A stretch of 64,000 bases of DNA, taken from assembly GCA_009829735.1 (NCBI GenBank), contig CM020620.1, positions 23,472,020-23,536,019 on the forward strand, read 5' to 3'. The notes below the pieces were generated by a model that worked only from the letters and a program-made list of their open reading frames with translations, was not told where the DNA came from and did no database searches. The stretch is from Pyropia yezoensis. Taxonomy: Eukaryota > Rhodophyta > Bangiophyceae > Bangiales > Bangiaceae. Both the position numbers and the translations under genes were made by a program. This document shows positions 15,633 to 57,799 of the stretch, in pieces (position 1 is the first letter of the stretch; each line of letters starts with the position of its first letter).

Positions 15633-15634
15633 GA

Positions 15635-27724: not shown

Positions 27725-29679
27725 ATGGCGACTCCGGGAGTGGAGACGGACTCTCTTGACGAGCGCATGGAGGACACCACCTACGGTGCAGCACCCGCCG
27801 GGACTTCCGGCGGGGGCTCCGCGATCGCTCCGGGGGACGGGACTCCCGCGTCACCCGGCTTTGGGTTGACGGCGGGGTCTCCCCCGGAGGCGGGACAAGT
27901 TGTCCCGCGTGAGGCCTTAGGGCGGTGGTTTTACCCCGCTTGGCCTCTCTATGAGGAGGGGCTGACTGTTCTTCGCTGTGGCCGACTTGGCGCAGCGATG
28001 GGCCGGGTATGGGACCGCCTACGGGAGAAGTATCCCCGTAGGGTCGGGTTCCCTGCCGGCTTCAGGACGGACCAGTTTGCCTTCCTGGACGATGAGGAGG
28101 TTGAGGACGTTCAGCGTGCCAAGGCCATGGTGGACCGCGGGGGAGCTATCCCAGGTCCCGGCGACTTGCCGACCTTCACGTGGGACGCTGTGGCAACTCG
28201 CCCACCGTACCTCCACGAGGCCGATCCGCACACTCATCACTTTGATGAGCGGATGGAGAAAGACTTCCGGCGAGGTCCCTACTTGGTGACCTCGGCTCAA
28301 CTTGAGTTTCCTCAACAGTCTGCTGCCAGTAAGGAGCAGTACTATCCGAAGAAGCCCGAGTGGTGGCCTCAAGTTGAGGTCCCCTACGGGTTCCCGGCGT
28401 TGTTGCCACGGTTGCTTGACCACTTCGGCTCCGTCATGTTGACGGCTGCCCCTGATCACCTGGTATGGGCCATGTTGGCCACCCAGTGGCTCCTCGAGGT
28501 CATGTCGACCTGGGTGTCCTGTGTTCAGCGGCGGGGGATGCTCTGGCATCTCCCCCTCCGGCTCCTCCAAGGATTGGAACAGCTCACCCCTCAGCTCGTT
28601 GCTGAGGGGTGCTCATCAGGACAACTCACTCTACTTGAGGAGATGCTCCGGCTCCATAAGTTTATCGAGTGGGAGAGCATTGAGCACAAGTTGCGCCGCC
28701 CCACTCGTGGGCCCAAGGACGATGGCGCACTTCGCCAGTTCGTGTGGGTCGCTCGTGAACTTCACGACGGCCGTGTGGTCCTACGAGAGGGGTTGGGCAT
28801 CGGGGACTACCCGTATGCCCCGGGGGTGGATCGCCACACTGCGCCACCCCCGGACAAGCCCATCGTTATGGCCGTGCCGTCCTATGATGACCATATGACT
28901 CAACCCACTGCGGGGGCCCCAAGTCGGGGTCGCAGTTACACCCGGGTATCGCCACCTCGGCGGGCCCCTCCGCTTCCTCCTGCTCCTTTCCAACCTCACG
29001 GGAACATCCCGATCAGCGTGGCCGTGGAGTCTTCCACCCCGGTGTCCCCCCACTGTCCCCCCACTTGGGGGCCACCCTCCTGACGGTATACCCCAAGTTG
29101 GTGTTGCCGCCCACGCCTCTAACCTCAGAGATGATGATCACCACGTTGGTGCGCACCATTTCCTGGTTGGCCGCGTCGACCGCAACCCTACAGAGTTCCG
29201 AGACTCCTCAACTTGAGGAGCGCGTTCGTACTGCAGCGGCGACCGCGAGTTGCGAGTCGGTGACGGAGTTTATGACAGACGAGTTGGCTCGCATTGGGGC
29301 TATTATGCCCCAGCCAGCCCCACTTGGGCGTGGCAAACGTCGCGCGAGCCGGGCATACTCGCCTCCTCGCCGTCGTCGCCGACACTCGCGGCGCTCTCCT
29401 TCCGTATCGGAAGACGAGTTGTCTTACTCCGTTTCGGAGTCCTCTACCCCGTCGGAGACGGAGTCTGTCCAGCGTCTGCGTCGCAAACTTGCGCGCAAGA
29501 CCAGGCAGAAGAGTGGCCACGGTCGGCGCCACTTGCGCGACCGTGAGGGGCGCGACGGTTCCGACTTGGAGCCGCCGCCCCCTCCAACAAGTGGAGACCG
29601 TTATCGGCGTGGGTCTCGCCGCTCGCCTCCACGTGAGGGCGAGGGCCGTGGAGTGGGAGAGTCTAGCATGCGTGCCTAG
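27725..29679 (+). CDS. Antisense ORF (aORF) of R2, left copy
   Basis: It lies on the strand opposite to gag/pol, between the chromodomain end (29791) and the 3' LTR, and reads toward pol. ATG 27725 opens a frame whose product is ~651 residues once a one-base C-run difference at about 29046-29051 is allowed for; the right copy has 7 C there and stays open. Order: low-complexity Gly/Pro N-terminus; a conserved block with 'EEVEDVQRAKAMVD', 'VATRPPYL', 'YYPKKPEWWPQVEVPYG', 'LVWAMLATQWLLEVMST' and 'LEEMLRLHKFIEW'; a Pro/Ser linker; an Arg/Ser-rich tail ('SRAYSPPRRRRRHSRRSP'). The same blocks occur in the antisense ORF of R3. I do not recognise the family. Its promoter would have to lie in the 339 bp before the ATG or in the 3' LTR. 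Codon-level conservation between diverged elements argues that it is a gene, not a shadow. Confidence 0.75.
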
Positions 29680-29790
29680 TTGGTCGCTGCCTTTGTTGTG
29701 AGAGTGTGAGGGTTAGGGCTGTAGTTAAAAGCCACTCTGCGTACCACTTCGACTTGAAGCACTCTCTTGGCACTGTTGCTCGGCCTTCCC

Positions 29791-32787
29791 TCACGTTGAG
29801 GGAGGGCTCTTAGGGTCTATCTCATTCCGGTCACAGTACGCCCGGACCTTCTCAGCGGGAAGGTCCTCCACATACTCCCACGTATCATCCTTGGCTTTGT
29901 AGCCAAACCAACGCACCCTCAACATGAGGCGGTCAGTGTCTTCATCCCTTCCGTGGTCGATGAACTTATCGAACACGTACTCCTGCGGGCCCTGTTTGGC
30001 CGCAGGCAGTCAGGGGAGGCGCCACGCTTCCAAAGCACGCGCCCAAGCTGGGTCGCCTGCAGGCGGTGGTGCAACTTTGACCACGTCCTGTCCGTTCACT
30101 GTGCGGACCCCATCGTCACTTTCGATGGTGAAGCGCCGCCCATCAGTACGAAGGACCTGGTACGGCCCCTTCGTCTGGAATACCAGCTTACCCCCAGTTG
30201 GGGTGTGCGAGTGTACCAGCACCCAGTCACCCTGCTCGGGGACATGTTTAGCATTGCGCACCTTTTTGTCAAAGGTACGCTTGTAGCGCTTTTGTGCTTT
30301 GTCCATCTCAGCCCTGACTTTAGGGATGAGGTTTTCAAGCCTAGCGGCGAACTCCGCCTTACTCTCAGTAGGAGTAGGCGTACTGCCACCATCATCCCTA
30401 GTTGGGAGCGACCGCCGCACGGCAATAGACCGCACGCGACGGGGGGTCACAAAAGCGAGGGGTACTTCCCCTGTAGATGAGTGAACCTGCGAATTGTAGG
30501 CAGTAGGAAGGATAGAAATGTATTGGTCCCACGTCTTCACGTGCTCACTCACATTGTGGCGCAGCTGCCTAACAATAGTTTTGTTGAAGCGCTCCACCTG
30601 CCCGTTAGTTTGTGGGTGGTAGGGGGTGGCATAGTTTGCCTTAACCCCCAACATATCCAGCACTCCCTGAAACAGTACAGACGCAAATTGCGGTCCATTG
30701 TCCGATAGTGTACTATCTGGGATGCCATACGCGGCAACCCAGTGATCTAGGAAGGCTGACACGACCGACATGGCCGTGATCTCTGCCAGTGGGATCGCTC
30801 GCGTAAGTTTCGTGAAGCGGTCACAGATGACCAGGAGGTACTGGTTGCCCTCCTCGGTCACGGGCAGTGGCCCAAGGATGTCCATCGCCAACGCGGCGAA
30901 GGGCTCCTTGGCCGGGAACAATAGCATAGCCGTAGTAGGCCGCCGTTCCATCAGACGATTCTGTGCACAACTTGTGCAGGCAGCCACCCAACTGTAGATG
31001 TCCACCACCATGGACGGCCAGTAGTACCTGGTCCTCAGGGTCTGGTACAGATTACTAGACCTCAGGTGTCCACCCGTGGGAGCGTTGTGCTCCCTCTCAA
31101 GGATACTGTCCTTGAGAGATGCGGGGACGACAAGTTGTTCGGTCCCCTGGAATACCCCCCTCCTCATGAGGAGGCCATCGTCTCCCAGAAAGAAACGCGT
31201 CTCTACCACTGTATCCAGTATATCCCTCTGCGACTTGCAGAAGGGATCCTCGGCCTGGGCCTTTACCACCTCGTCCAGGGACAGGGGCAAGTACTTCTTG
31301 TTCCCTGGCGCCTCGGGGTTCAACGCCTGACCCGAGCGCGTGACTACCCCCACGATGGGGATGTCCTCATCGACTGGGTTAGTGTCCAGCCCCTCGGTAG
31401 GTACCCGAGAGAGGCCGTCGGCAAGGGCATGTTGCCTGCCAGGTCGGTATTCAATGTCAAAGTTGAAGGGTGCCAGTCGCACCCTCCACCGGTTGAGACG
31501 AGTGTTCGTACAGTCCGTCTTAAAGATGAACTGCAACGCGCGGTGGTCACAGCGGATGAGGAACTTCTCAACCTCCAGGTAGTGACGAAGTGACGTCACC
31601 GCCCACACCACTGCGAGTCCTCCCAACTCGGTGACTCCGTAGTTCTTCTCGGCCGAGTTCAGCCCCTTACTAAAGTATCCCACCGGCAAGTACTCCTTGT
31701 CCGGCTGCTGCTGAAGCAGCACACAACCAAGTTGGTCGTAGCTAGCGTCCACATCCAGGATGTAGTGGCCTCCCAACCTGGGAATAGCCAAGATGGGGGG
31801 CTTCAGCAGAAGGTCCCGAAGAGTCTCAATGGATTCCTGCTCCACCCGACTTGGGGGAGGCAGGTTCTTCGGTAGCGTTGAGCTCACTAGCTCATTCAAC
31901 GGCTTCGCCACCTTGGCGAAGCCCTTGGTGAAACGTCGGTACACGTTACACATCCCGAGGAAGCTCCTCATCTGGGTCTGGGTCCGGGGGTACTGAGCCT
32001 TACGAATGGCCCTCAAGTTCTTCTCGTTAACACTGAGACGCCCCGGATGGACAACATGTCCCAAGTACTCCACCTCTTGAGTAAAGAGGTGGCACTTACT
32101 CGCCTTCAGTGACACACCGGCGTCAGCAAGTAGCTTGAACACCTGGCCAAGATGGCCAATGTGTTCCTGCGGACTTCGGGAGACCACAATGATATCGTCT
32201 AGGTACACAAGACAGATCTGCCACCGTACTCCGGCCAGAATCATGTCCATAGCGCGCTGGAAAGTTGCCGGCGCGTTACACAGACCAAACGGTAGACGCT
32301 TGCACTGGTAGGTACCACAGTGACAGTTAAAGATAGTTTTATGCCTGTCCTCCGGGGCAATGGGAATTTGCCAGTACCCCGCGTTACAGTCCAGGGTAGA
32401 GAACACGTTTGCCTCCCCCAGAGAGTCCAGACAGTCATCCATCCTAGGTAGGGGATAACTGTCCTTCACCGTGCTCTCGTTGAGCTTACGGTAGTCGATA
32501 CAAAACCGGGGGGTCCCATCAACTTTGGGGACGATAACCACCGGACTCGCCCACTCGGCGTTGCTGGCCTCGATCACATCGAGGGCCTCCATGCGAGCAA
32601 CTTGCTCCTTAACGAGGGCCCTTGAACGAGGTCCTCCCCTATACGGTTGTTGGCGTATAGGGGGTGCACCGGGCTTCAACTCGATCCGGTGTTGGGTGGC
32701 TCTCATGAGTCCCAATTGACCATCCCACAACTTATGATATTGGTCCAAGAGGCGTTCAACTTGAACCCTCAACCTGGGGGGGGACAC
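29791..32787 (-). CDS. R2 pol: reverse transcriptase, RNase H, integrase, chromodomain (left copy)
   Basis: The frame covers a full RT ('FCIDYRKLNESTVKDSYPLP', active site 'YLDDIIV' at about 32192-32207) and an RNase H with all four acidic positions ('LDVDAS', 'VTELGGL', 'IRCDHRAL', 'ALADGLSR'). The integrase has a zinc region H-x6-H...CTSC and a DDE core ('MDILGPL', 'LSDNGPQF', 'NGQVERF'). A TGA at 30010-30012 then interrupts the frame; in the same frame beyond it is a chromodomain ('LRVRWFGYKAKDDTWEYVEDLP') ending at 29791. The TGA is present in both copies, so it is not an assembly slip. Catalytic residues are all intact. The chromodomain places the element in the chromovirus branch, whose integrases are guided to modified histones. 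Confidence 0.93.
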
Positions 32788-32830
32788 CCTCCATGTTCAC
32801 ATGGGGTCGAGGAGAGGCGGCCGACTTGGC

Positions 32831-35597: not shown

Positions 35598-36097
35598 NNN
35601 NNNNNNNNNNNNNNNNNNNNNNNNNNNNNNNNNNNNNNNNNNNNNNNNNNNNNNNNNNNNNNNNNNNNNNNNNNNNNNNNNNNNNNNNNNNNNNNNNNNN
35701 NNNNNNNNNNNNNNNNNNNNNNNNNNNNNNNNNNNNNNNNNNNNNNNNNNNNNNNNNNNNNNNNNNNNNNNNNNNNNNNNNNNNNNNNNNNNNNNNNNNN
35801 NNNNNNNNNNNNNNNNNNNNNNNNNNNNNNNNNNNNNNNNNNNNNNNNNNNNNNNNNNNNNNNNNNNNNNNNNNNNNNNNNNNNNNNNNNNNNNNNNNNN
35901 NNNNNNNNNNNNNNNNNNNNNNNNNNNNNNNNNNNNNNNNNNNNNNNNNNNNNNNNNNNNNNNNNNNNNNNNNNNNNNNNNNNNNNNNNNNNNNNNNNNN
36001 NNNNNNNNNNNNNNNNNNNNNNNNNNNNNNNNNNNNNNNNNNNNNNNNNNNNNNNNNNNNNNNNNNNNNNNNNNNNNNNNNNNNNNNNNNNNNNNNN
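35598..36097. other. Assembly gap, exactly 500 N
   Basis: A round-number gap inside R2. The sequence left of it corresponds to about 44104 in the right copy, and the sequence right of it corresponds to 27598 in the left copy. The two sides overlap rather than adjoin, so the gap probably has no real content. Confidence 0.95.
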
Positions 36098-36224
36098 TCA
36101 CCTTCCACTGGGCCGCCCCACGCTGGGGAGGCCACCCGTATACCCACGATCCGAGTCCCCCTCAACTCGAGGCGGGTCTCGTGCTGCGATAGCCAGAGCG
36201 TCTCTCCCCAACTTGGGGAGAGCC

Positions 36225-38190
36225 ATGGCGACTCCGGGAGTGGAGACGGACTCTCTTGACGAGCGCATGGAGGACACCACCTACGGGCAGCACCCGCCGG
36301 GACTTCCGGCGGGGCTCCGCGATCGCTCCGGGGGACGGGACTCCCGCGTCACCCGGCTTTGGGTTGACGGCGGGGTCTCCCCGCGAGGCGGGGACAAGTT
36401 GTCCCGCGTGAGGCCTTAGGGCGGTGGTTTTACCCCGCTTGGCCTCTCTATGAGGAGGGGCTGACTGTTCTTCGCTGTGGCCGACTTGGCGCAGCGATGG
36501 GCCGGGTATGGGACCGCCTACGGGAGAAGTATCCCGTAGGGTCGGGTTCCCTGCCGGCTTCAGGACGGACCAGTTTGCCTTCCTGGACGATGAGGAGGTT
36601 GAGGACGTTCAGCGTGCCAAGGCCATGGGTGGAGCCGTCGGGGGAGGCTATCCCAGGTCGCCGCGACTTGCCGACCTTCACGTGGGACGCTGTGGCCAAC
36701 TCGCCCACCGTACCTCCACGAGGCCGATCCGCACACTCAATCACTCTTGATGAGCGGATGGAGAAAGACTTCCGGCGAGGTCCCCTACTTGGTGACCTCG
36801 GGCTCAACTTGAGTTTCCTCAACAGTCTGCTGCCAGTAAGGAGCAGTACTATCCGAAGAAGCCCGAGTGGTGGCCTCAAGTTGAGGTCCCTACGGGTTCC
36901 CGGCGTTGTTGCCACGGTTGCTTGACCACTTCGGCGTCCGTCATGTTGACGGCTGCCCCTGATCACCTGGTATGGGCCATGTTTGGCCACCCAGTGGCTC
37001 CTCGAGGTCATGTCGACCTGGGTGTCCTGTGTTCAGCGGCGGGGGATGCTCTGGCATCTCCCCCTCCGGCTCCTCCAAGGATTGGAACAGCTCACCCCTC
37101 AGCTCGTTGCTGAGGGGTGCTCATCAGGACAACTCACTCTACTTGAGGAGATGCTCCGGCTCCATAAGTTTATCGAGTGGGGAGAGCATTGAGCACAAGT
37201 TGCGCCGCCCCACTCGTGGGCCCAAGGACGATGGCGCACTTCGCCAGTTCGTGTGGGTCGCTCGTGAACTTCACGACGGCCGTGTGGTCCTACGAGAGGG
37301 GTTGGGCATCGGGGACTACCCGTATGCCCCGGGGGTGGATCGCCACACTGGCGCCACCCCCGGACAAGCCCATCGTTATGGCCGTGCCGTCCTATGATGA
37401 CCATATGACTCAACCCACTGCGGGGGCCCCAAGTCGGGGTCGCAGTTACACCCGGGTATCGCCACCTCGGCGGGCCCCTCCGCTTCCTCCTGCTCCTTTC
37501 CAACCTCACGGGAACATCCCGATCAGCGTGGCCGTGGAGTCTTCCACCCCGGTGTCCCCCCCACTGTCCCCCCACTTGGGGGCCACCCTCCTGACGGTAT
37601 ACCCCAAGTTGGTGTTGCCGCCCACGCCTCTAACCTCAGAGATGATGATCACCACGTTGGTGCGCACCATTTCCTGGTTGGCCGCGTCGACCGCAACCCT
37701 ACAGAGTTCCGAGACTCCTCAACTTGAGGAGCGCGTTCGTACTGCAGCGGCGACCGCGAGTTGCGAGTCGGTGACGGAGTTTATGACAGACGAGTTGGCT
37801 CGCATTGGGGCTATTATGCCCCAGCCAGCCCCACTTGGGCGTGGCAAACGTCGCGCGAGCCGGGCATACTCGCCTCCTCGCCGTCGTCGCCGACACTCGC
37901 GGCGCTCTCCTTCCGTATCGGAAGACGAGTTGTCTTACTCCGTTTCGGAGTCCTCTACCCCGTCGGAGACGGAGTCTGTCCAGCGTCTGCGTCGCAAACT
38001 TGCGCGCAAGACCAGGCAGAAGAGTGGCCACGGTCGGCGCCACTTGCGCGACCGTGAGGGGCGCGACGGTTCCGACTTGGAGCCGCCGCCCCCTCCAACA
38101 AGTGGAGACCGTTATCGGCGTGGGTCTCGCCGCTCGCCTCCACGTGAGGGCGAGGGCCGTGGAGTGGGAGAGTCTAGCATGCGTGCCTAG
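36225..38190 (+). pseudogene. Antisense ORF of R2, right copy (5' half with many indels)
   Basis: From 36098 to about 37190 this copy differs from 27598-28680 by many one-base insertions and deletions, mostly in homopolymers, so its 5' half is shattered into frames. From 37177 to 38190 it is open for 337 residues and includes the Ser/Pro linker and the Arg/Ser-rich C-terminus. The C run at about 37556 has 7 C, which keeps the frame that is broken in the left copy. Confidence 0.8.
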
Positions 38191-38301
38191 TTGGTCGCTG
38201 CCTTTGTTGTGAGAGTGTGAGGGTTAGGGCTGTAGTTAAAAGCCACTCTGCGTACCACTTCGACTTGAAGCACTCTCTTGGCACTGTTGCTCGGCCTTCC
38301 C

Positions 38302-41300
38302 TCACGTTGAGGGAGGGCTCTTAGGGTCTATCTCATTCCGGTCACAGTACGCCCGGACCTTCTCAGCGGGAAGGTCCTCCACATACTCCCACGTATCATC
38401 CTTGGCTTTGTAGCCAAACCAACGCACCCTCAACATGAGGCGGTCAGTGTCTTCATCCCTTCCGTGGTCGATGAACTTATCGAACACGTACTCCTGCGGG
38501 CCCTGTTTGGCCGCAGGCAGTCAGGGGAGGCGCCACGCTTCCAAAGCACGCGCCCAAGCTGGGTCGCCTGCAGGCGGTGGTGCAACTTTGACCACGTCCT
38601 GTCCGTTCACTGTGCGGACCCCATCGTCACTTTCGATGGTGAAGCGCCGCCCATCAGTACGAAGGACCTGGTACGGCCCTTCGTCTGGAATACCAGCTTA
38701 CCCCCAGTTGGGGTGTGCGAGTGTACCAGCACCCAGTCACCCTGCTCGGGGACATGTTTAGCATTGCGCACCTTTTTGTCAAAGGTACGCTTGTAGCGCT
38801 TTTGTGCTTTGTCCATCTCAGCCCTGACTTTAGGGATGAGGTTTTCAAGCCTAGCGGCGAACTCCGCCTTACTCTCAGTAGGAGTAGGCGTACTGCCACC
38901 ATCATCCCTAGTTGGGAGCGACCGCCGCACGGCAATAGACCGCACGCGACGGGGGGTCACAAAAGCGAGGGGTACTTCCCCTGTAGATGAGTGAACCTGC
39001 GAATTGTAGGCAGTAGGAAGGATAGAAATGTATTGGTCCCACGTCTTCACGTGCTCACTCACATTGTGGCGCAGCTGCCTAACAATAGTTTTGTTGAAGC
39101 GCTCCACCTGCCCGTTAGTTTGTGGGTGGTAGGGGGTGGCATAGTTTGCCTTAACCCCCAACATATCCAGCACTCCCTGAAACAGTACAGACGCAAATTG
39201 CGGTCCATTGTCCGATAGTGTACTATCTGGGATGCCATACGCGGCAACCCAGTGATCTAGGAAGGCTGACACGACCGACATGGCCGTGATCTCTGCCAGT
39301 GGGATCGCTCGCGTAAGTTTCGTGAAGCGGTCACAGATGACCAGGAGGTACTGGTTGCCCTCCTCGGTCACGGGCAGTGGCCCAAGGATGTCCATCGCCA
39401 ACGCGGCGAAGGGCTCCTTGGCCGGGAACAATAGCATAGCCGTAGTAGGCCGCCGTTCCATCAGACGATTCTGTGCACAACTTGTGCAGGCAGCCACCCA
39501 ACTGTAGATGTCCACCACCATGGACGGCCAGTAGTACCTGGTCCTCAGGGTCTGGTACAGATTACTAGACCTCAGGTGTCCACCCGTGGGAGCGTTGTGC
39601 TCCCTCTCAAGGATACTGTCCTTGAGAGATGCGGGGACGACAAGTTGTTCGGTCCCCTGGAATACCCCCCTCCTCATGAGGAGGCCATCGTCTCCCAGAA
39701 AGAAACGCGTCTCTACCACTGTATCCAGTATATCCCTCTGCGACTTGCAGAAGGGATCCTCGGCCTGGGCCTTTACCACCTCGTCCAGGGACAGGGGCAA
39801 GTACTTCTTGTTCCCTGGCGCCTCGGGGTTCAACGCCTGACCCGAGCGCGTGACTACCCCCACGATGGGGATGTCCTCATCGACTGGGTTAGTGTCCAGC
39901 CCCTCGGTAGGTACCCGAGAGAGGCCGTCGGCAAGGGCATGTTGCCTGCCAGGTCGGTATTCAATGTCAAAGTTGAAGGGTGCCAGTCGCACCCTCCACC
40001 GGTTGAGACGAGTGTTCGTACAGTCCGTCTTAAAGATGAACTGCAACGCGCGGTGGTCACAGCGGATGAGGAACTTCTCAACCTCCAGGTAGTGACGAAG
40101 TGACGTCACCGCCCACACCACTGCGAGTCCTCCCAACTCGGTGACTCCGTAGTTCTTCTCGGCCGAGTTCAGCCCCTTACTAAAGTATCCCACCGGCAAG
40201 TACTCCTTGTCCGGCTGCTGCTGAAGCAGCACACAACCAAGTTGGTCGTAGCTAGCGTCCACATCCAGGATGTAGTGGCCTCCCAACCTGGGAATAGCCA
40301 AGATGGGGGGCTTCAGCAGAAGGTCCCGAAGAGTCTCAATGGATTCCTGCTCCACCCGACTTGGGGGAGGCAGGTTCTTCGGTAGCGTTGAGCTCACTAG
40401 CTCATTCAACGGCTTCGCCACCTTGGCGAAGCCCTTGGTGAAACGTCGGTACACGTTACACATCCCGAGGAAGCTCCTCATCTGGGTCTGGGTCCGGGGG
40501 TACTGAGCCTTACGAATGGCCCTCAAGTTCTTCTCGTTAACACTGAGACGCCCCGGATGGACAACATGTCCCAAGTACTCCACCTCTTGAGTAAAGAGGT
40601 GGCACTTACTCGCCTTCAGTGACACACCGGCGTCAGCAAGTAGCTTGAACACCTGGCCAAGATGGCCAATGTGTTCCTGCGGACTTCGGGAGACCACAAT
40701 GATATCGTCTAGGTACACAAGACAGATCTGCCACCGTACTCCGGCCAGAATCATGTCCATAGCGCGCTGGAAAGTTGCCGGCGCGTTACACAGACCAAAC
40801 GGTAGACGCTTGCACTGGTAGGTACCACAGTGACAGTTAAAGATAGTTTTATGCCTGTCCTCCGGGGCAATGGGAATTTGCCAGTACCCCGCGTTACAGT
40901 CCAGGGTAGAGAACACGTTTGCCTCCCCCAGAGAGTCCAGACAGTCATCCATCCTAGGTAGGGGATAACTGTCCTTCACCGTGCTCTCGTTGAGCTTACG
41001 GTAGTCGATACAAAACCGGGGGGTCCCATCAACTTTGGGGACGATAACCACCGGACTCGCCCACTCGGCGTTGCTGGCCTCGATCACATCGAGGGCCTCC
41101 ATGCGAGCAACTTGCTCCTTAACGAGGGCCCTTGAACGAGGTCCTCCCCTATACGGTTGTTGGCGTATAGGGGGTGCACCGGGCTTCAACTCGATCCGGT
41201 GTTGGGTGGCTCTCATGAGTCCCAATTGACCATCCCACAACTTATGATATTGGTCCAAGAGGCGTTCAACTTGAACCCTCAACCTGGGGGGGACACCCTC

Positions 41301-41309
41301 CATGTTCAC
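38302..41309 (-). CDS. R2 pol: RT, RNase H, integrase, chromodomain (right copy)
   Basis: Nearly identical to 29791-32787 (YLDD at about 40701-40717). One C is missing near 38676, which scrambles the last ~50 residues of the integrase frame; the left copy has the base. The TGA before the chromodomain (38521-38523) and the chromodomain itself (38302-38487) are unchanged. Upstream, only a TAA at 41340-41342 separates this frame from protease, in the same phase. Confidence 0.93.
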
Positions 41310-41339
41310 ATGGGGTCGAGGAGAGGCGGCCGACTTGGC

Positions 41340-42284
41340 TTAATGCTTCTCCTTTCCGGACTTCGGGTCGCTACTTGCGCCCGCGTTGAGGGTGACCGCT
41401 ACTACCGGTCCCTCGTGTTGGTCGATATAGCCGAACTTGGCTCCCGACTTGAAGTACTTGGGCGTCGGGCTCAGGTTCATCACCTGGATCCTCCACGGGA
41501 CTCCGGCTTTGGAGTCCATCGTGCCAAGGGCAACATGCACTTGGTGCTTGCGAGCAAGACGGGGGTGAGGGTGCACCAACCCGTTCCCCGAAAAATCAGT
41601 TACAACATCAACGTGCGCCACCGAGTTGGGGGGCAACATGACTTTGCGGGCTAAACGCAGGGTAGCAGTAAACCCTTCCCTCACCGAACAAACAGGCTTC
41701 GACTGTGAGACTGTCACAGGAGCCACAGACTTTCCCTTACCAAGGATGGGGATAGTCTCCCCATTCATCAACTTGACCCAGTACTCAGGGCCACAAACCA
41801 AAGGCACTTGTGTAACAACATAAGGGGTACCCAGAAGCAGGGGTACCGATATATTCTCAACTACGCCATAGGTCACGTCGACCTCATGGGTCCCCAACCT
41901 AGTTGGTTGGGTTACGGCACCAACGATGGGAAGTACCCCACCATTGATGTCAATCATATGGTCAGCTTTGGACCTCCAGCGTTGGAGCTTCACCTCCTTT
42001 GGTAATAGCGACTTGCGTATCAAGGAGGCTCCTGACCCGGTATCAAGTACGATACGGGTACAGCATGCACGGCCGGGGGCAAGTTGCACCCGTCCAGCCA
42101 CCTGGAAGCTCTCACCCGTCAGCACCGCGATGACCCGACGTGGGTTTACGTTCTTGGGGAGTCCTACCCGAGGTGGGCGGACTCCCTTAGGTCGCCGCAG
42201 TATCCGGCACGGTTGGTTCGTCCTCCTGGCCCACTTGGCCGAGGCTGCCGTTGTGAGCTTCGGACGACCAGCCCCAACGGTCAT
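41340..42284 (-). CDS. R2 protease region (right copy)
   Basis: Identical in layout to the left copy: 314 codons, retropepsin 'LDTGSGASLI' at about 42025-42052 and 'LLLGTPYV'. The frame lies -1 relative to gag and is reached by the GGGAAAC site at 42287-42293. An independent ATG overlaps the gag stop (ATGA), so reinitiation is an alternative way to make it. Confidence 0.92.
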   Translation of the reverse strand: MTVGAGRPKLTTAASAKWARRTNQPCRILRRPKGVRPPRVGLPKNVNPRRVIAVLTGESFQVAGRVQLAPGRACCTRIVLDTGSGASLIRKSLLPKEVKLQRWRSKADHMIDINGGVLPIVGAVTQPTRLGTHEVDVTYGVVENISVPLLLGTPYVVTQVPLVCGPEYWVKLMNGETIPILGKGKSVAPVTVSQSKPVCSVREGFTATLRLARKVMLPPNSVAHVDVVTDFSGNGLVHPHPRLARKHQVHVALGTMDSKAGVPWRIQVMNLSPTPKYFKSGAKFGYIDQHEGPVVAVTLNAGASSDPKSGKEKH

Positions 42285-44225
42285 TCGTTTCCCGCCGACT
42301 TGGCGTCCGAGTCTGAGGGCGGGGAGGAAGACGACGATTCCGAGGACGACGTGTCCGCCTCCTCCGCCGAGGGTGTGGCGACCGCAACGACCGGTCGAGA
42401 CCCACCCTCGCGGCGTGAACGTACTTCGTTCGTAGCCGACTTTTTACTCGCATTCCTAACAAGTTGTTGGATGCGTTTACTCAACTTGGGGCAATCATAT
42501 GCCCAGTGACCATCGGAGTTGCAGTTCCAACACCGATGGTCCGTTCCGGGAGGGGTCTTCCCAACTGGGGAAGACGAAGGGATACCCTGGGAAGTTCCCA
42601 CGGCAGCTACCACCCTCTCCTTGCGGAATCGGCGTGCCTCTCTCAACTCTCTGGCCTGGCGCGCCTCCTCCCGTTCCTTGGCCAACTCGGCCTGACGCTC
42701 CTGGCGTTGTTCCTCCCGCAACTTGCGGTAGGCCTCGCCTCTGCGATAGGCGAACCTGGCCAACTCGGCCAGGGTCGCCCGGGCAGTGTTATGCTCCCGG
42801 GTCTCCATCCGGACTGACCAATGGAGTCCCTCCAAAAACCGACTCTTCACCACAGCTTGTGGATGAAGAAACCCACAAAGATTGTTGAGCTTACGGACTC
42901 GCTCCGCAAAGCACAACTCGTCCTCCGCCTCTTCCTGATGGGCTTGCGTAAACTCCTCGACTTGAGAAGCCAACGCTGCCTCATCAACCATGGCTCTCAA
43001 CAACCAGTTGACGAGCTCCAAATAGGACGTCACCTCCCCAGCGCCTCCACTTGAGGAGCTGGGCATGACGGACATAAGTTCTGTCCGTAGGTCGCCCTTC
43101 GTAAACTCCTGTAGCATGTAAAAAGCCATGCCTTCACTTATGGCATTGTCGTCACAGGCTTTTGTGAAACGACGTAGGAACTCAAAGACACGGAGGGGGG
43201 GAGTTCCGTCCCACTCCGCTTTGTGCCCAAAAGAATGAAGTGCATTCTTCTTGGCACGGCCCATGGCTCGGGCCTGGTCAGGACCATACGCCACCGACTT
43301 GTTGTGGAGGGCGTAGGTCTCACAGTCAAAGATCCTCTGGTAGACCGGGTTGGCTACCTGGATCTTGGGCGGCACCTCACGTTGAGGGAACAGCCGCTGT
43401 GGCACTGGGGTAAGTTCACTCTCAGTGCCTGTAGTCCGGCGCGGCGCGCTTGGTGTAGCCGCCGGCGTTTCCGGGGGGAACTCCCCCGTGAAGGGCGTAC
43501 GCCCCACCGAGTATGGTGTGGCTCCCTTATTGGGAGTCACAGGTGTCGCCCCCAGCTCGGGGCGACCAGAGATAGGCGTAAGGGGGGATTCCCCCTGCGC
43601 CTGCGGGCTCGAAAGCCCCAATCCGGTTTGGACATTAAGGCCATCTGGCAAACTCGCCACAATCTGATTCAGAATAGTATTCGTCATCGTGACCACCAGG
43701 TCCGGCAAAGTCTGCCGCAACACATTGGTCGCCTCCCGACGGACAGTTTCCGCGAGGAGTGGATTGACGACTCCAGTTGAGTCTCGGTCCGCCTCCGGGA
43801 GTCCACCTGAGGGGTAACCACGTTCCTCAGGGGTCTCAACCGGGAACATGGGCGCGAGCCCATCGCCGACCAACGGAGGTCCACCGTCCTCCGAAAGCCT
43901 AGTTGGCGACGAATCTAAGCCAAAGTTGGCTCCAACCCGAGTGGAGCCCGCGGGGACAGTCCTCACCCCTTGGGACGTTCCCGTTGAGTATACCACACGG
44001 TGGCCACTTCGGCGCACCCACATCAGAAGTGTCACCCGAGTGAACTCCCGACTGAGTCGGGGTGGCCTGTTGCCCGCCCGTACTTCCAGTCCTGCTGGCT
44101 CGAGGGACCTCCAGTCCCTCTGCGACCCCAGGTAAACCCACCTGTGTCTCACCAGTATTCAAAGGCACTGAAGTACGTGCGTCACCCGTGTACTCCCCGG
44201 ACGACGGGGGGTCCGAGCTAGCCAT
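42281..44225 (-). CDS. R2 gag (right copy)
   Basis: ATG 44225 ('MASSDPPSS') lies about 100 nt after the PBS, making it the natural start. A small indel at about 44005-44012, where the two copies differ, moves the N-terminal ~70 residues out of phase with the rest; from there one frame is open to TGA 42281. Order: Pro/Gly/Thr-rich N-terminus; capsid-like core ('DCETYALHNKSVAYG', 'WDGTPPLRVFEFLRRFTKA', 'GEVTSYLELVNWLLR'); a charged Glu/Arg helix; a CCHC knuckle 'CWNCNSDGHWAYDC'; a Ser-rich acidic tail ending 'SAGNE'. The protein would package element RNA. Confidence 0.9.
42287..42293 (-). promoter_or_regulatory. R2 -1 frameshift slippery heptamer GGGAAAC
   Basis: On the element strand G GGA AAC lies in the X XXY YYZ phase of gag, one codon before the stop. 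A -1 slip enters the protease frame at once. Six nt downstream CCGTTG can pair with CAACGG. The same heptamer occurs at 33778-33784 in the left copy. Confidence 0.75.
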
Positions 44226-44342: not shown

Positions 44343-44344
44343 AA

Positions 44345-44813
44345 TGTGGCAAAAACCACTAGCACACACGGCACCCAAGTTGGGGCGGTGTGCTAGGGCT
44401 GCCTCCCGTGTCGGGGGAACCGGAAGAAGTGCAAGTCGCACACACTCTGTCCCTGTTGTGGGGCAAACCCCCCACGGACAAACAAGAGGATGGTGTGTGG
44501 TCCAACAGTTTCTTGGTCGGGACGGGGACGCAGGGCCAAGCCCCGCTGTCCCTCCCCTTATCCCCCCAGGGTCCACTCAGAATCTCGCCACTCAGAATCT
44601 CCCACCCCAGCACCTGCCCACCGGGCCACACGAAAATTCAAGACGATAAATGCAGAAAACCCTCAAATCCAAGTTGGATTTACTACTAAGCTAACTATAC
44701 CAAACTTAGGGAATATGGACCCAAATGCAGGGGGAGGAACGGATCAGGCTAGTGGCCTGCCGCCCCTTGCATGGCACGTGTTGTCCCCCTACCTGGGGGT
44801 CAATACTGCCACA
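44345..44813 (-). repeat. R2 5' LTR
   Basis: 469 bp, TGTGGC...GCCACA, partner of 26918-27386. The host sequence resumes at the CAGAC duplication (44814-44818). Confidence 0.95.
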
Positions 44814-44818
44814 CAGAC

Positions 44819-47675: not shown

Positions 47676-47676
47676 T

Positions 47677-48905: not shown

Positions 48906-49476
48906 TGTAGCATCCCTGGCCCTGACTTGGCGCCGACCCGGGACTACAACCAGAGGGCACCAGGTGCCAGAACACGCCCGCCGTGTGGTGATGGTTGGCG
49001 GCCGTGGCCCGTGCCCGGCACTGGGATGCGGTGGACTACGCTATCCACACGTGAGAGAGGGATTTCTGATGGGTTTTTGCATACTTGTGAGGGACTTGAT
49101 TTGAGAGAAATTGAGTGTGAGATTAGTGAGTGGGAATAGAATTAGTAGTGATAGTGGCCCCCGACCTGACGAGGTTAGACTCGGGTCGGGGCCACTCGGG
49201 GGTATGGGGGAGCTACCTGGCCAACGTGCCGAGGCTCCCCCAGATGCACGTTAAGAGGGACAGCGAGGCGCCCTTGGCCCGCACCCTCAGGAAAAAGACA
49301 ACTGCGCGTTTGCTTTCCTCTTCCCCGTGTGCACTACCGTGCGTATCTGTTTGCTCTGCGAGCAGGCACGTGAGGCAACAGGCATACCACTCTCGTAGTT
49401 CCCCTTTCTGTGTTACCTGTCCGTTTTCTCCGAGGGATATTGACACGTGTCGGAGAGGATCGAGTTTTAAACCACA
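48906..49476 (+). repeat. R3 5' LTR
   Basis: 571 bp, TGTAGC...ACCACA, followed by TATT and the PBS. It contains a strong inverted repeat around 49155-49200, where GTGGCCCCCGACC and GGTCGGGGCCAC flank a short loop; this is present in both LTRs and could be a regulatory or terminator hairpin. Confidence 0.95.
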
Positions 49477-49480
49477 TATT

Positions 49481-49498
49481 TGGTGGAGCAGCAGGGGA
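49481..49498 (+). other. R3 primer binding site
   Basis: The shared TGGTGGAGCAGCAGGGGA, 4 nt after the LTR. Confidence 0.93.
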
Positions 49499-49688
49499 TG
49501 ATTGGAGTGTTTGAGAAGAGACATTTGGGAGCAGCGGTTGGTTTGTTCCTGTTCTGTCTTTTTCTGTGGTTTGGGAGTTATTTGCACCCGTTCACGGGAA
49601 CCCCATTCCTGGCTCTCCAACCCCTCTCTTGTGGTCTTGCGATCTTTGGACACGCAGGCAACTGGACTGTGGCTGTCAAGAGACCAAC

Positions 49689-51449
49689 ATGGCTACCCTC
49701 CCTGGCACGACGGTGCCCGAAGGGGTAGACCCCGCGTCCCTTGACACATCCCTGGTCACCGCGGGGGACGGTGCCCAACCCGGCGTTCTCCCTACGGGTG
49801 AAGCAGACCTGGGCGTGACATCTGGTAGCGGACTGGAGTCTACAGGCGGCCAAGCACCTCCTGCTCCCGTTCCTCCGGCTGTTTCTCCTGTGGGAGCCAC
49901 CCCGGGGTCAACGGCGTTTGAGTCCGCTCGCAGCAGACGTCTCCCTCCTGTCGGTTCTACTCCTCAACCTCCAGGGATAGCCCCTGGTGTGTTTACTCCT
50001 GGACCCACACATGGCAGCTGGGTGTATACACCTCTTCCTGTGGGCACTAGCAGTGCCAGAGGCACCGCTTCAGCTGGTTTTACGGGTCACCCTGAGACCA
50101 CGACTCCTGGGACCGGCCAAGCTTTTCCTCCCCTTGCATCCTATGTGGCGGGGAGCTCCAAGACCGGTAACTGGAGCAGCCGGAGGCGTCGGCGTCGTCG
50201 TCGTCGCACTAGCACCAGCGAGTCCAGTTCCGCCAGCTCTGAGGAGGGATATGACTGGGACGCATCTCCTGGTCCCACCCGGCGCAGGCCAGTCGAGTTT
50301 GACTTCCCTGCCCACCAAGTGGGAGATGCCACCCTGAACAGGGTCACGTATTGGGGTAACTACCGGCTGAAGAACCAAGACCAAGGTCACACTCAGAAGA
50401 TGGCCAAGAAGATGGCATCCCTGAACCGGCGAATGCAGCCGAGCGTCGGGGGACATCCCAAGTTTTCCGGGAAGAAACCGGCGCTTATCTTTGCCTTCCT
50501 GCGCCGGTTTGTCAAGGCATGCAACGACAACGATGTGTCCGAGGGGAAGGCACTCTTCCTCCTGGTTAAATTCATGACCGGAGAAGCGGAACAGCGGTTC
50601 GCACAGGTTCTACTAGACTCAGCTGGACACATTGTCGGGCAAACCGTGGGGAGCTATCCAGAAGCGGTCAACTGGCTCCTGTCCAACTACGCTGACGCGG
50701 ACTCCCTGCGCAAGGCAGTGGGCAGGTTGAACCGGGCAACCATGGAGCGCCAAGAAACTCCAGAGGCCTTTGCCCTCTGTGTTCGGAGGATGAGCAAGGC
50801 TTGTGGCAACGTTTACCCTCAGGACAGGCTCAAGATGATCTTCTCGGAAGGGCTTCCTGAATATCTTCAAGTGGATGCGGAGAACTACAACCAGGAACAT
50901 CAAGAACATACCTTCCAGCAGTTGATGGCCAACACCCAGGGCAAGTACCGGCAAGCCAAGGCCCTCCAAGCTCCCATGGTATCAACTCACAAGCCGTTCT
51001 CGCGGGTTCGTCCCGGACCCGACAAGTATAAGGGAGGTGATAGCGCTGTACCGGTACTCGCAGTTAGCGAGGCCTCACCCGTGGGGTCAGGAGACAAGTG
51101 GGGCGGCTTCGTTTCTAAGGAGCAACCTTCCCTAGTCGCCCCCAAGCAGGTCAAAAACCAGCGATTCCGGGCTTGTTGGCTGTGCCAGAAGGAGGACCAC
51201 ATGTCCTACCAGTGTCCACCCATTCCCAAGGACCTCCAGGAGAAGCTCAAGCGTCAAGGGTTGGTGTTTGCAAAGGCAGTCAACTGGGCTGAGCGGCGAG
51301 CACCCTCCAAGATGGACAAGGTACAGGCACACGCAATCCGGGTGGCAACCTTGCAGAGCATCACGGAGGCCCTTGCAAGGGAAGCTCCTACGGACTTTGA
51401 CCTGCAGACCGAAACCTCTAAGGACTCCTCGGACCCGGGAAACGAGTAG
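49689..51449 (+). CDS. R3 gag
   Basis: An intact frame of 586 residues from ATG 49689 to TAG 51449; an in-frame upstream start at 49566 is not ATG. N-terminal Pro/Gly/Thr-rich half with an Arg cluster ('SSRRRRRRRRRTSTSES'); capsid-like core ('KKPALIFAFLRRFVKACNDN', 'SEGKALFLL', 'VNWLLSNYADADSL', 'RMSKACGNVYPQDRL'); a CCHC knuckle 'CWLCQKEDHMSYQC' at about 51174-51215; the end is 'DPGNE'. It aligns with R1/R2 gag over 'RF.KA..DN..SEG' and 'VNWLL', but most of the protein has diverged. Confidence 0.92.
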   Translation: MATLPGTTVPEGVDPASLDTSLVTAGDGAQPGVLPTGEADLGVTSGSGLESTGGQAPPAPVPPAVSPVGATPGSTAFESARSRRLPPVGSTPQPPGIAPGVFTPGPTHGSWVYTPLPVGTSSARGTASAGFTGHPETTTPGTGQAFPPLASYVAGSSKTGNWSSRRRRRRRRRTSTSESSSASSEEGYDWDASPGPTRRRPVEFDFPAHQVGDATLNRVTYWGNYRLKNQDQGHTQKMAKKMASLNRRMQPSVGGHPKFSGKKPALIFAFLRRFVKACNDNDVSEGKALFLLVKFMTGEAEQRFAQVLLDSAGHIVGQTVGSYPEAVNWLLSNYADADSLRKAVGRLNRATMERQETPEAFALCVRRMSKACGNVYPQDRLKMIFSEGLPEYLQVDAENYNQEHQEHTFQQLMANTQGKYRQAKALQAPMVSTHKPFSRVRPGPDKYKGGDSAVPVLAVSEASPVGSGDKWGGFVSKEQPSLVAPKQVKNQRFRACWLCQKEDHMSYQCPPIPKDLQEKLKRQGLVFAKAVNWAERRAPSKMDKVQAHAIRVATLQSITEALAREAPTDFDLQTETSKDSSDPGNE

Positions 51450-51477: not shown

Positions 51478-51487
51478 GAATCTCTGA

Positions 51488-52276: not shown

Positions 52277-55200
52277 GTTGGAACAGCAGAGCCTTACCGG
52301 GGGTTTGCCCGTGCTATGAGCAATGAGGACCTCCTGAACCTGCAACAAGAACTGGCATCCAATTCAACGGCCTTAGACGTACCTTCGAGACAAGAGCAGG
52401 CTAGCAGCGTCACCCCGAAGCCCGATCAAGCACCATCCGGGATGCCGAAGGTCAACCAGGAAAATGTCCCTCCCGACTTGAAGGAGGCACTGGAGAAGCT
52501 TCTCCAGGAATATCGGTACCTGTGGTCTGGAGAGCTGGGCAAGATGGACGCCACTCTACACCGGATTCAACTCAAGCCAGATGCCAAGCCAGTGCACCTG
52601 CAACCATACCGGGCTGGACCTCATCGCCGGGATGAGATTGGAAAGCAGGTTAACAAGATGCTCAAGATGGATGATATCGAGCCGTCTGATGGCGAGTGGG
52701 CCTTCCCGGTGGTAGTCGTCCAGCAACCTGGCGGTCACTTCCGTTTCTGCGTTGACTACAGGCGCCTGAACGAGATGACAGTCAAGGATGTATACCCGAT
52801 ATCCCGGATGGATGATTGCATCGACTTTCTTGGCGATGCCACCCTCTTCTCAACGCTGGATTGTAATGCCGGTTACTGGCAGATCCCTCTGGCTGGCGAG
52901 GACAAGGACAAGACCACCTTCACGTGCCACCTGGGACTACTCCGGTGCAGGCGTCTTTCTTTTGGTCTCACCAAAGCTCCGGCGACCTTCCAGAGAGCCA
53001 TCGATATCATCCTGTCGGGGCTCAGGTGGAGAACATGTTTGGTCTACCTGGACGATATTATCGTTTTTTCCAAGACCCCGGCGGAACACCTGGAGCACCT
53101 TCGAGAGGTCCTGGCTCTCCTGTCCAAGGCTGGAGTTACCGTGAAGGCCGAGAAGTGCCACCTGTTTGAGACTGAAGTGGAGTACCTGGGGCACGTGCTG
53201 AGTCCGGGGGAGATCCGAGTCAATGAGAAGAACATCAAGGCCCTCCGGCATGCACGACAACCTAAGACCCAGACGGAACTCAAGAGCTTTCTGGGTATGT
53301 ACAACGTCTACCGCCGGTTCGAACGGGAGTATGCCCTGATTGCCCGGCCATTGACCAAGCTCACCAGCAAGAAGCTCCCCGCACAACTCCCGGTGTTTGA
53401 CGAGAAGCAGACCGCGGCCTTCGAAGAGCTCAAGAAGCGCCTGAACACAACTCTAGTACTGGCGTTACCCAAGCGGGAGGGCCAGTTTGTTCTGGAGACG
53501 GATGCCTGTGGCGTCCAGGTGGGGTGCTCACTACTCCAGCAGCAACCTGATGGGCACTTTCTCCTGATAGGCTACTACAGTCGCGTCTTGACTCCAGCCG
53601 AGAAGAAGTATTCCACGACGGAGCGCGAGTGCTTGGCGGTCGTCTGGGCTTGCTTCCTGTTACGCCCATATCTTGAAGGACAAGAGTTCCTCATCCGGAC
53701 GGATCACGCCAGCCTAAGGTGGCTGCTATGCATGGACAGCAGCCAAGGAGGGGTCGCCCGGTGGCGCCTACGTCTTTCAGAACTCAAGTACAAGGTGTGC
53801 ACCAGAGCAGGGAAGGAGCACCACTGCGCCGACACTATGTCCCGGCTGGAGACTCCTGCAGCCGACACCGGTCCAATCCCGGAGGAAATACCCTGTTTCA
53901 TCCTCCCGAATGTCGGACGTGGCTGGCATGCTCCCCTGTATGGGACACCTGAAGCTCATCAACCGGTAACCATTCACCGGATGCTGGAGGCACAACTGAC
54001 GGATCCTCAATACTTGGAGCTTCGCCACCAAATGGACCTGAACCGGAACAGTCGCTTCTCCGAGTCTACAGATGGACTCCTGGTACGGGTGTCACTCTCG
54101 ATGGGGCAACTCAAGTCTACGTACCCCGGAGTCTACGGGCTGGAATCCTCCGCCTGGAGCACTCGTCTCCCCAGGCCGGACATCCTGGCATCAACCGGAA
54201 GTATGCTTCGATGCGACGACACTATTTCTGGGAAACCATGGCCAGTGACGTCCATAAGCACCTGGAGGCTTGTGTCTCTTGTGCAAGGAACCGGTTGTCC
54301 CAGAGGAAGAAGACTTCTAAGCTACGCCTATTGCTTGCGGCGGAGCCCTTTGCAAGCTTAAGCATGGACATCCTGGGGCCCCTACCTGAAACATCCTGTG
54401 GCAACGTACACCTGCTCATCATTTGTGACCGGTTCTCCAAGTTCACTCAAGCGATCCCGCTGAGCACCGTTACGGCCCTGGATGTCACGTCAGCCTTCTG
54501 CGAGTACTGGATAGCTGCCTAGGGCCCTCCAGACTCCGTCTTAACAGACAACGGTCCCCAGTTTGCATCCCTGTTCTTCCAAGGAGTCTGTGACCTGATG
54601 GGTATCAAGAACTTGTTCACCACGACGTACCACCCGCAAACGAACGGCCAGGTGGAACGATTCAACCGGACCCTTGTGGATATGCTACGGCACTACGTGG
54701 AGGAGCACCAAGAAAACTGGGATGAGCTCCTGGCTGTCCTCACGCTAGCCTACAACTCCCGAGCTCACCGGACAACGGGGGTCGCTCCACTCGACTTTGT
54801 CACCCCAAGGCGGCTGACCGACTTCTCCCTGGAAAGAATACCAGACGGTCTCCAGCCTGCACTGAAGTCACGTCCCAAGGCAAAGGATGAGTTCCTGGAA
54901 CAACTGAAGCTCCTGCTCCCAAGAGTCACGGAGTCAACCCCAAAGACCCAGGAGCGATACAAGCGGGACTATGACAAGGGAGTCCAGGAAACGAACAAGG
55001 AACAAGGTGGTGGCGACTGGGTTTTTGTGGACAATCATAGCAAGACCCGGGGAAAGCTGGACTCTAAGACGGATGGACCTTATGAGATCCTGAATACGGA
55101 CGGCTGGACCTTTCTTCTTGACGTGGATGGCTCTCCGTACCGGGTAAGCAGCGACCATGTCACCCGAGCTCCACCGCCAAGCAAACGGGACTTGACCCTG

Positions 55201-55536
55201 CGCAACCGGGCCGCAGTACCCTGGTTATCCCAAGAAGAAGGCCGAGAATTTGTCTACGTCAAGGTTGTCGACCACGCCTGGAGGGACGGGCGCTTGTACC
55301 TGCGAGTACGCTGGTTCCGTTTCAATCCGGCAGATGATACCTGGGAACCCTGAAACCGGTTACCCATTGCGGACGTCTGCGCCTACACGCGACGGAACGG
55401 GACTGAGGGCACTCCGGTGGCCAGAGCCGACAAGATCCTCGAATCGGACTCGGAGGATGACCAGGAGGAAGGATCTGATCAAGACCCGCGGGACGAGCCG
55501 AGCTCACCCGTAACAGACGCGGAACAAGAGGATTGA
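52277..55536 (+). pseudogene. R3 pol: RT, RNase H, integrase, chromodomain
   Basis: RT is intact ('FCVDYRRLNEMTVKDVYPIS', active site 'YLDDIIVFS' at about 53044-53070), as is RNase H ('LETDACG', 'TTERECLAVVW', 'IRTDHASLRW', 'HCADTMSRL'). A frameshift at about 54088 moves the integrase into another frame. There H-x6-H ('HSSPQAGH') and 'CVSCARNR' precede the DDE residues ('MDILGPL', 'LTDNGPQF', 'NGQVERF'); a TAG at 54520 replaces a conserved Tyr. A chromodomain ('LYLRVRWFRFNPADDTWEP') is cut by TGA 55351-55353, beyond which the frame runs on to 55536. Two stops and one shift make this copy defective. Confidence 0.92.
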
Positions 55537-55681
55537 GAAAAAGGGAACGGGTGTATCAAGGAAAACACGCAATGCAAGCATGGAACTATTAAGAAAAACA
55601 AGCACCCGCTCGAGCAACCCTTCTCTCCGACTCTTCCCTCCTCGCTCCTTCCTAGACTCTCATCCTCCTTGCCTCCAAGTA

Positions 55682-57799
55682 CTACTCCCGGCGCGGACGC
55701 TGCGCCGGGGGAGCGTCCTCCAGCGCCGCCTCCGCAACACGACGGGATCCGGAGGAAGGCGGGATGGCGTAGTGCGGTGGGAGAGGTGCTTCCATGTGTG
55801 ACGCCATCGGGGCAGTACCGGTAGTTGCCGGGCGCTCCCGCTCGTCCAGATATACCTGTCGGCGCCCCTGGAAGCCAGTGAAGGTCTCCGACCACTGGTG
55901 GGCCAAGCCATGCCGCGTCAAAGTCGCCGGAAGTTCACCAACCACTGGGCTGTCCGACATCTGGCCGCTGTCCGCGCAAGCAAACACCCGGTCGACCACA
56001 TCGTTCAAGACGCTGGCGTAAGTGCCCGGCACCAAAGAAGATCCGACGCCTTCGACCTGCACCGGAAGACGACCCAGCTGTTCCTCAAGCATGCCAACGT
56101 CATACTGGTCGCACGTCGGGCCACCTTGGTTCAGGTACGAGTCAGGCACCCGGAAGCGGGTAAGGCGCAGAGTCGGCGCCGGGATCTCGAACCGCCCCGT
56201 GGTTGCCACTACCGGACGGTCCACAATAGCCCCAGAAACCGAAGTCCCCAACTCAAGAGGAGGCACAGGGCCGCCAACAGTTGAAGAGGGCGCCCGAGGA
56301 GGAACGTCCGGAGTAGTCGGCGACTGGACAGCCACGCCAAGACTAGCTGCATACAAGCGCAGTGCCGGAGGAGCCTAAAGTACAGGCACCGCCGGAGCGG
56401 GGCGCAAAGGCGCCGGCGACGGTTTAGGTGAGGCCACCGGGGCGGCAGGTGCAACAGGAGGAAGCGGAGCCGCCGCAGACGCCCGACCGACCGCCGCGGC
56501 CCATCCCGACTCTTGTACCGGCGGCCCAGTTGGCAGGAGATCGAGGGCGACCGGAGCCGGAAGGCTGCCTAGCTGCGGCCTCGCCGGCAGCGGCGTCGCC
56601 AGCTGCACCTTGGCTGGAGAAGACTGGTAGATCACCTGCACCCAACCTCAGCCAACCCGACGCGGGCTGTTCTGGTCGGCGATCGCGTTCAAGAAGCTCC
56701 GGTCATGCACCGGCAGCTGACGCCGGAAGTCAATCATCGCCTGGAAGAGCTCCTTGTACTCCTCGTCCTGGCTGCACAGGAAGTCGACGGTCAACTTGTC
56801 GACGTTCCAATCCATCAGGAGGTCTGGGAGGAGCCAGAGCCGGTTGGACACCAAGACTTCGTGGAGCCAGTGGTTGGCCGCCAAGACCGTCATCTCGGAA
56901 GTGTACATCATGGACGGGTTGGAATGGAAGAAGCCCTTGATAGACGCCTGGGTCAAGGCGTCGAGAAAGTACCAGGTGAAGGGGATGCTGGATGGAGCAA
57001 GCCCGACCGGGATCTCGACTTCCTGCTGCTGCGGGATGACCTTGGGGTAGTACGTCACACGGTTGGCCTTGTCCAGCTTCCACAACTCTTGATGGTTGCA
57101 GCTCACGATGAAGTCACGCTGGCGCCCGCGCCGCTCGCCTTGCTCCCGTGCCGACGACAACACGGAGTATTTCCGGGTCAAGAAAGGCGGCTCCAGAGCG
57201 ACCATGCTCGGATGGGGATCACAGTTCAGGCTCCCCGACCCCTTGAGCGCCTCGTCCCAGACCTTGAGCGCTCGATGCACGTACTCTTCCTCCTCTGGCC
57301 GCCGGAGAACGGACCCAGACACGCGACGCTCGGTCAAGGGTAGATCTAGCACCAGCGCGAAGCGGAGCTTTTCCAGGCGAGCAACCCAAGAGGAACTCGA
57401 AAAGCTCTGGGAGCGGTCTTGTGCCAGGCGCATCTGGTGCGCTGCATGTAGACGAGTCTTGTCCATCTCCGTCAAGACTCTGCGCTGGAGTTCCTTGCGC
57501 CAGATGACCAGGCGATCCTGCTGGCACTGGGCCGCGCTGGCGTTGCCGACCACCGTGGAGTAGCGCCGGCCCGCCAGAGGATCCTGCCCAAGAAGCATCT
57601 CCGGGAGACCCACCTGGGGGGTCTCGACCGGGTGCAACGCAGAAGCCGGGGGAACTCGATCCGCCTCCGCCGTGGCGACCGACGCCGGCACCGCCACCCG
57701 AGGAACCGGGGGCAGGAGAGGGGCACGGCCGCCCGAGCTCTCCTCTGTCACACTCGCCGCCGGCGCCTCGGTCCCAGCTTGGATCTCGGAACTGGACAT
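55682..57799 (-). pseudogene. Antisense ORF (aORF) of R3, homologue of the R2 antisense ORF
   Basis: It lies on the strand opposite to gag/pol, from ATG 57799 ('MSSSEIQAG'), 184 bp inside the 3' LTR, toward the end of pol. One frame of 705 codons is interrupted only by TGA at 56648-56650 and TAG near 56375. Its N-terminal half has 'EEEEYVHRALKVWDEA', 'MVALEPPFL', 'YYPKVIPQQQEVEIPVG', 'MTVLAANHWLHEVLVSNRL' and 'LFQAMIDFRRQL', aligning in order with the R2 antisense blocks. The C-terminal half is Pro/Ala-rich, then a second ordered stretch ('QYDVGMLEEQLGRLPVQVEG', 'YASVLNDVVDRVFA'), ending basic ('PPAQRPRRE'). The family is unknown. That so few stops occur in 2.1 kb supports past selection. Confidence 0.78.

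Follow-up and report, generated by a model that had tools for sequence, protein, structure and literature searches.

The window analysed here, a 64,000-nucleotide stretch (G000:C3:23472020-23536019) of a 107.5 Mb assembly, comes from the red alga Pyropia yezoensis, whose genome is reported to consist of 48% repeats, with LTR retrotransposons foremost (PMC7423979). It contains two Ty3/gypsy elements, R2 and R3, the latter nested inside an element of a third type, R4 (target duplication AGGCA). Behind pol, in the interval before the 3' LTR, all three families carry an extra ORF that is antisense to gag/pol (hereafter aORF). The relevant features are:

26918..27387, minus (the sense strand of R2): R2 3' LTR (window self-blastn; ends TGTGGCA...TGCCACA)
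27725..29083, plus: window copy of the R2 aORF, first of two frames; the ATG at 27725 opens 452 codons
28891..29679, plus: R2 aORF, second-frame continuation with an Arg-Ser-rich tail in the frame-shifted window copy
30010..32796, minus: R2 pol with RT, RNase H and integrase (Pfam RVT_1, RT_RNaseH, Integrase_H2C2, rve)
36225..38190, plus: R2 aORF, second copy, with several frame changes, beside the N gap at 35598-36097
38607..41339, minus: R2 pol in the second interior copy, 99.6% identical to the 30010-32796 region
42281..44158, minus: R2 gag (from its translation, with a CCHC knuckle seen by eye; identity with R3 gag 26.6%, E 3e-33)
44345..44814, minus: R2 5' LTR (window self-blastn)
48906..49476, plus: R3 5' LTR (window self-blastn)
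49515..51449, plus: R3 gag (window self-blastn; gag comparison)
52277..54361, plus: R3 RT and RNase H, 48.8% identical to R2 pol
54523..55353, plus: R3 integrase end with a chromodomain-like C-terminus (PF00385, 21.1 bits; cut-off 25.1)
55685..57799, minus: R3 aORF, window copy with in-frame stops (segments 57799-56651, 56647-56378 and 56374-55685)
57984..58554, plus: R3 3' LTR (window self-blastn)
61076..63754, plus: R4 pol with RT, RNase H and integrase (blastn, Pfam, protein comparison)
64514-66226 in continued coordinates (L069:814-2526), minus: R4 aORF, just beyond the window end

Element anatomy and the placement of the antisense ORFs

R2 has the target duplication CAGAC and LTRs that are 99.4% identical (26918-27387 versus 44345-44814); the R3 LTRs are 97.4% identical (48906-49476 versus 57984-58554). 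Two R2 interiors, 99.6% identical, flank a 500-N gap at 35598-36097 (window 27598-44105) and represent either tandem elements with a common LTR or an assembly effect. Closely spaced RT matches elsewhere in the genome point to tandem arrays as a possibly common arrangement. A tandem repeat of about 27 bases (26005-26439) lies just outside the R2 LTR.

R2 and R3 have in common the stretch TTTGGTGGAGCAGCAGGGGA after the 5' LTR. Among the three families, identity is 47-49% in RT-RNase H, 37-47% in integrase and 23-28% in gag, the R4 gag in this comparison being that of an adjoining R4-like element past the window. R2 scores 22.2 bits (E 1.4e-4) and R3 21.1 bits (E 3e-4) against the PF00385 chromodomain, both under the cut-off of 25.1, and the Pfam scan did not find this chromodomain in R4.

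The original prediction described a long ORF in R2 and R3 on the strand opposite to gag/pol and tail to tail with pol. Our coordinates for both ORFs agree with it and place them next to the 3' LTR, the R2 aORF starting 338 bases behind it. Place and strand hold for every window copy, whereas none of these copies is a single open frame. Across 30 R2 loci, the aORF extends from its ATG for 647 codons in 23, for 641 in one and for fewer in six. The corresponding 30 R3 loci include 18 of intact length (705 codons in 15, 704 in two and 693 in one) and 12 that are shorter, and the R4 copy L070 has an aORF of 789 codons. Among the matches listed, the matched stretch is free of stops at 92 of 93 R2, 94 of 107 R3 and 54 of 76 R4 places. 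These figures overstate intactness because the sampled copies are the best-scoring of larger candidate sets. L074, an R4 copy selected on its RT rather than on its aORF, also has the aORF on the opposite strand, where it is frame-shifted and contains an N gap. The presence of the ORF in further copies, on which the original reading depended, is borne out by full ORFs in R2 and R3 copies and by the third family, R4.

The arrangement recurs across the genome. The distance from the LTR to the aORF start is constant in 30 of 30 R2 loci; sequences beyond the LTR of these loci are unrelated (63% difference), and the insertions are therefore independent. For R3, a listed aORF lies no more than 10 kb from 23 of 64 listed RT places, giving 24 pairs (64 RT and 107 aORF places, among the matches listed). 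In all 24 the strands are opposite; the aORF is downstream in 23, of which 21 have a spacing of 2293-2546 bases, and upstream in one. The three R4 pairs (84 RT and 76 aORF places, among the matches listed) are likewise all on opposite strands, with the aORF downstream at 1.9 kb. Unpaired RT or aORF places among the matches listed for R3 and R4 carry no information. This is the placement of the aORF-3R architectural class (antisense, between pol and the 3' LTR), and in the best-scoring copies the aORFs are, as in that class, present in most copies and conserved like other element proteins.

Homology and features of the antisense proteins

The original prediction drew on four pairs of ordered blocks shared by the R2 and R3 proteins. 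The similarity is beyond noise (42.0 bits, 0/2000 shuffles; core z 11.9, 0/2000). Three of the block pairs fall within the BLAST alignment, whereas the fourth (LATQWLLEVMST with LAANHWLHEVLVS) is 8 residues out of register, because the alignment pairs the W and LWxLP that follow. R2 also matches the window R4 aORF (34.7 bits, 0/2000 shuffles), the core of the R4 copy L070 (z 18.0, 0/2000) and the core of a relative from Pyropia vietnamensis (z 13.2, 0/2000). Direct R3-R4 homology is not significant, either in the aORF comparison (18.9 bits, 580/2000 shuffles) or in the core alignment with L070 as R4 (z 1.8, 122/2000), and R3 and the P. vietnamensis core give z 0.6 (507/2000). Profile comparison aligns R2 with R4 over 186 columns (probability 85, E 6e-6) and with R3 over 99 columns (probability 57, E 1e-4), and finds no match between R3 and R4. 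R3 is linked to R4 through R2 only. In local alignments, aORF identity between families is 22-27%.

Two further candidates were rejected. A C-terminal domain common to the families looked likely by eye, and five cross-family segment pairs gave 58 to 1953 of 2000 shuffles; in this test the segment is strong only for R4 against its own P. vietnamensis relative. Sequence comparison also ruled out the ORF at 46213-47277 (minus) as an aORF relative.

We searched 5.8 billion proteins for relatives, with about 8000 candidates scored per search. Among these, the R2 aORF has one close relative (97%), the R3 aORF one (90%) and the R4 aORF seven, of which two are at 90-94% and five come from P. vietnamensis. 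The latter are hypothetical proteins that align over 24-77% of the query at 45-54% identity; one stands for 19 sequences. Viral contigs contained no aORF relatives. A protein that matches no known domain might be a host gene or other mobile element that was captured in reverse and then carried along. The aORF, however, occupies the same position and strand in three families that diverged deeply, and it is still selected; the matches listed from the own genome and the protein searches include no non-element homologue, those in the own genome being element copies. We regard capture as quite improbable, though a captured gene can also be functional today.

The full-length R2, R3 and R4 aORFs gave no passing Pfam match (hmmscan, E up to 1), and a DUF641 candidate in the R2 second frame (E 0.064) fell far under the cut-off. 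PDB sequence searches returned one chance-level match (E 0.18) in one case and none in the other. Structure prediction, which had been proposed as a check, gave two AlphaFold models with mean pLDDT of 31.6 and 31.9 and no usable fold. Neither Pfam nor the AlphaFold models provided a fold or domain supporting nucleic-acid binding. The aORF N-terminus is of low complexity; the R2 tail is basic and Arg-Ser-rich, with NLS-like motifs, and the NLS-like cluster is strong in R2 only.

A role as env substitute had also been suggested, and the position between pol and the 3' LTR is indeed that of env. This role is unsupported because the most hydrophobic window is too weak: top 19-residue Kyte-Doolittle means are 1.23 for R2, 1.54 for R3 and 1.37 for R4, with no transmembrane-like stretch. 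Env-like proteins combine sense orientation with a transmembrane segment, whereas the aORFs are antisense and have no such hydrophobic stretch, which makes an envelope-like or cell-to-cell movement protein scarcely credible.

Selection on the antisense frame

The original prediction would have been refuted by dN/dS near 1. We calculated pN/pS for each of the six frames by pooling pairwise comparisons, in which the pairs are non-independent and the estimates pairwise rather than tree-based, and found the lowest value in the aORF frame of both R2 and R3, as expected under purifying selection. For R2 this value is 0.127 (codon bootstrap 0.091-0.163), as compared with 2.04, 4.20, 1.24, 0.24 and 3.13 in the other frames; for R3 it is 0.326, as compared with 1.33, 1.34, 1.10, 0.39 and 1.46. 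Four of the five other frames exceed 1 in R2 and in R3 alike. The exception (0.24 and 0.39) is a stop-rich opposite-strand frame that has its third codon positions in common with the aORF.

The R2 aORF and the R2 pol end (pN/pS 0.146 over 186 codons) are under equally strong selection, and the R3 pol end (0.539 over 66 codons) is under weaker selection than the R3 aORF. In R4, a first pair aligned as DNA over the whole ORF gave 0.562 versus 0.607 for the shadow frame. With five sequences and a protein-guided alignment of about 540 codons, the aORF frame is lowest in 10 of 10 pairs (0.29-0.49), and by segment pN/pS is 0.07-0.20 in the core and 0.43-2.1 in the outer parts.

These results bear on two explanations that do not involve a functional protein. 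A shadow ORF or chance frame might be expected in DNA with a G+C content of about 60%, and the window does hold other long chance frames. This explanation is refuted by the stop-rich opposite-strand frame with its higher pN/pS and by homology that beats 2000 of 2000 shuffles, and the aORF is not a shadow of pol, in line with the original prediction. Alternatively, the antisense RNA itself might matter, for example in double-stranded RNA control, with the ORF being incidental; PMC7264820 discusses comparable effects of RNA in other elements. Amino-acid selection in one frame, with four others above 1, strongly disfavours this RNA-only explanation, to which we give very little credence. With position, orientation, homology, intact reading frames in many copies and selection all documented, the antisense ORF is almost certainly a selected protein-coding gene.

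A separate observation concerns the R2 LTRs. R2 copies (loci L039-L068) differ by 1.4% in the LTR, by 2.2% in the spacer between LTR and ATG and by 5.0% at aORF synonymous sites. LTR diversity is thus far under aORF synonymous diversity, a pattern compatible with an LTR that is constrained or subject to gene conversion.

Function and known parallels

Antisense ORFs at the same place are already known in plant and fungal elements, according to PMC7264820. Maize Grande gene23 and the rice RIRE2 antisense ORF, which are like the aORFs in place and strand, are described there as conserved in most copies, and the Grande protein as nuclear with its own promoter; the likeness is one of architecture. 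Similarly likened by architecture is brtn of the Botrytis cinerea element Boty/BcGypsy1, an antisense gene that this non-plant gypsy element carries between its pol and 3' LTR (PMC7264820, PMC8365987). The aORFs belong to this architecture with a different protein. Retand-lineage plant gypsy elements have antisense ORFs encoding TRP28 (PF04195; PMC11963269), whereas TRP28 is absent from R2, R3, R4 and P0005 (hmmscan, E up to 5 and up to 1). The lack of likeness to plant antisense ORFs noted in the original prediction is thereby upheld at the level of Pfam domains. Retand is also a non-chromovirus lineage of flowering plants, whereas R2 and R3 end in a chromodomain-like C-terminus and have a red-algal host. 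HTLV-1 HBZ is another antisense accessory gene of an LTR element (PMC11963269), expressed from an antisense promoter in the 3' LTR (PMC7264820). HBZ contains a bZIP, whereas the Pfam scan found neither a bZIP nor any other family in the full-length aORFs. What such ORFs do in LTR elements has yet to be established, according to PMC7264820.

It seems reasonably likely to us that the aORF is a third Ty3/gypsy gene, kept by purifying selection and encoding a nuclear accessory protein from an antisense transcript; we infer the transcript, the location in the cell and the function. The gene would have been inherited with the element since at least the common ancestor of the three families, which are now 47-49% identical in RT-RNase H. 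A separate antisense transcript, starting in or near the 3' LTR, would give rise to a soluble accessory protein whose low-complexity N-terminus is followed by some 200 conserved core residues and a variable tail, which in R2 is Arg-Ser-rich with NLS-like motifs. This protein would most likely be nuclear and act on nucleic acid or chromatin, and may tune the element's own expression or help a nuclear step of its cycle. Analogy with the nuclear Grande protein (PMC7264820) and the R2 tail make a nuclear accessory protein from an LTR-proximal antisense transcript the most likely arrangement; a nuclear regulatory mechanism is possible, if short of probable.

The protein could instead be a structural or life-cycle helper, acting in the particle, the reverse-transcription complex or the pre-integration complex as a second gag-like factor and not as a regulator. 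It diverges between families (22-27%) as fast as gag (23-28%), and in R2 is selected as strongly as the pol end. From the opposite strand, however, it cannot be made from gag-pol RNA, and Pfam gives no capsid or zinc-knuckle match; we therefore consider a helper role unlikely. A bolder reading would make the aORF an ancestral, near-obligatory antisense third gene of a red-algal Ty3/gypsy lineage: one protein family that predates the three-family split and is unrelated both to TRP28 and to every domain described so far, driven by a 3'-LTR-proximal antisense promoter, needed for propagation and independent of HBZ-like genes in origin. We advance this reading tentatively, as a shade short of an even prospect.

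Searches of the open-access literature turned up no account of antisense ORFs from gypsy elements of red algae. The aORFs appear to form a protein family not described before, in a host remote from both plants and fungi. Selection has been measured for each frame and in R2 matches that on the pol end, and each family is represented by dozens of near-identical copies in a seaweed whose genome has been sequenced. This combination makes it testable whether elements need such proteins and whether the genes arose more than once.

The window also holds genes of other kinds. Two ORFs on the plus strand (3533-4528 and 15803-16867) encode Tc/mariner-type DDE transposases (DDE_3, HTH_Tnp_Tc3_2) and are in part 73% identical in DNA, and a minus-strand ORF (14786-15706) has a hAT dimerisation domain (PF05699, E 2e-8). 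A 942-codon ORF on the plus strand (7124-9952) joins inositol monophosphatase and EcKL/APH kinase-like domains in one frame and is apparently a host gene fusion.
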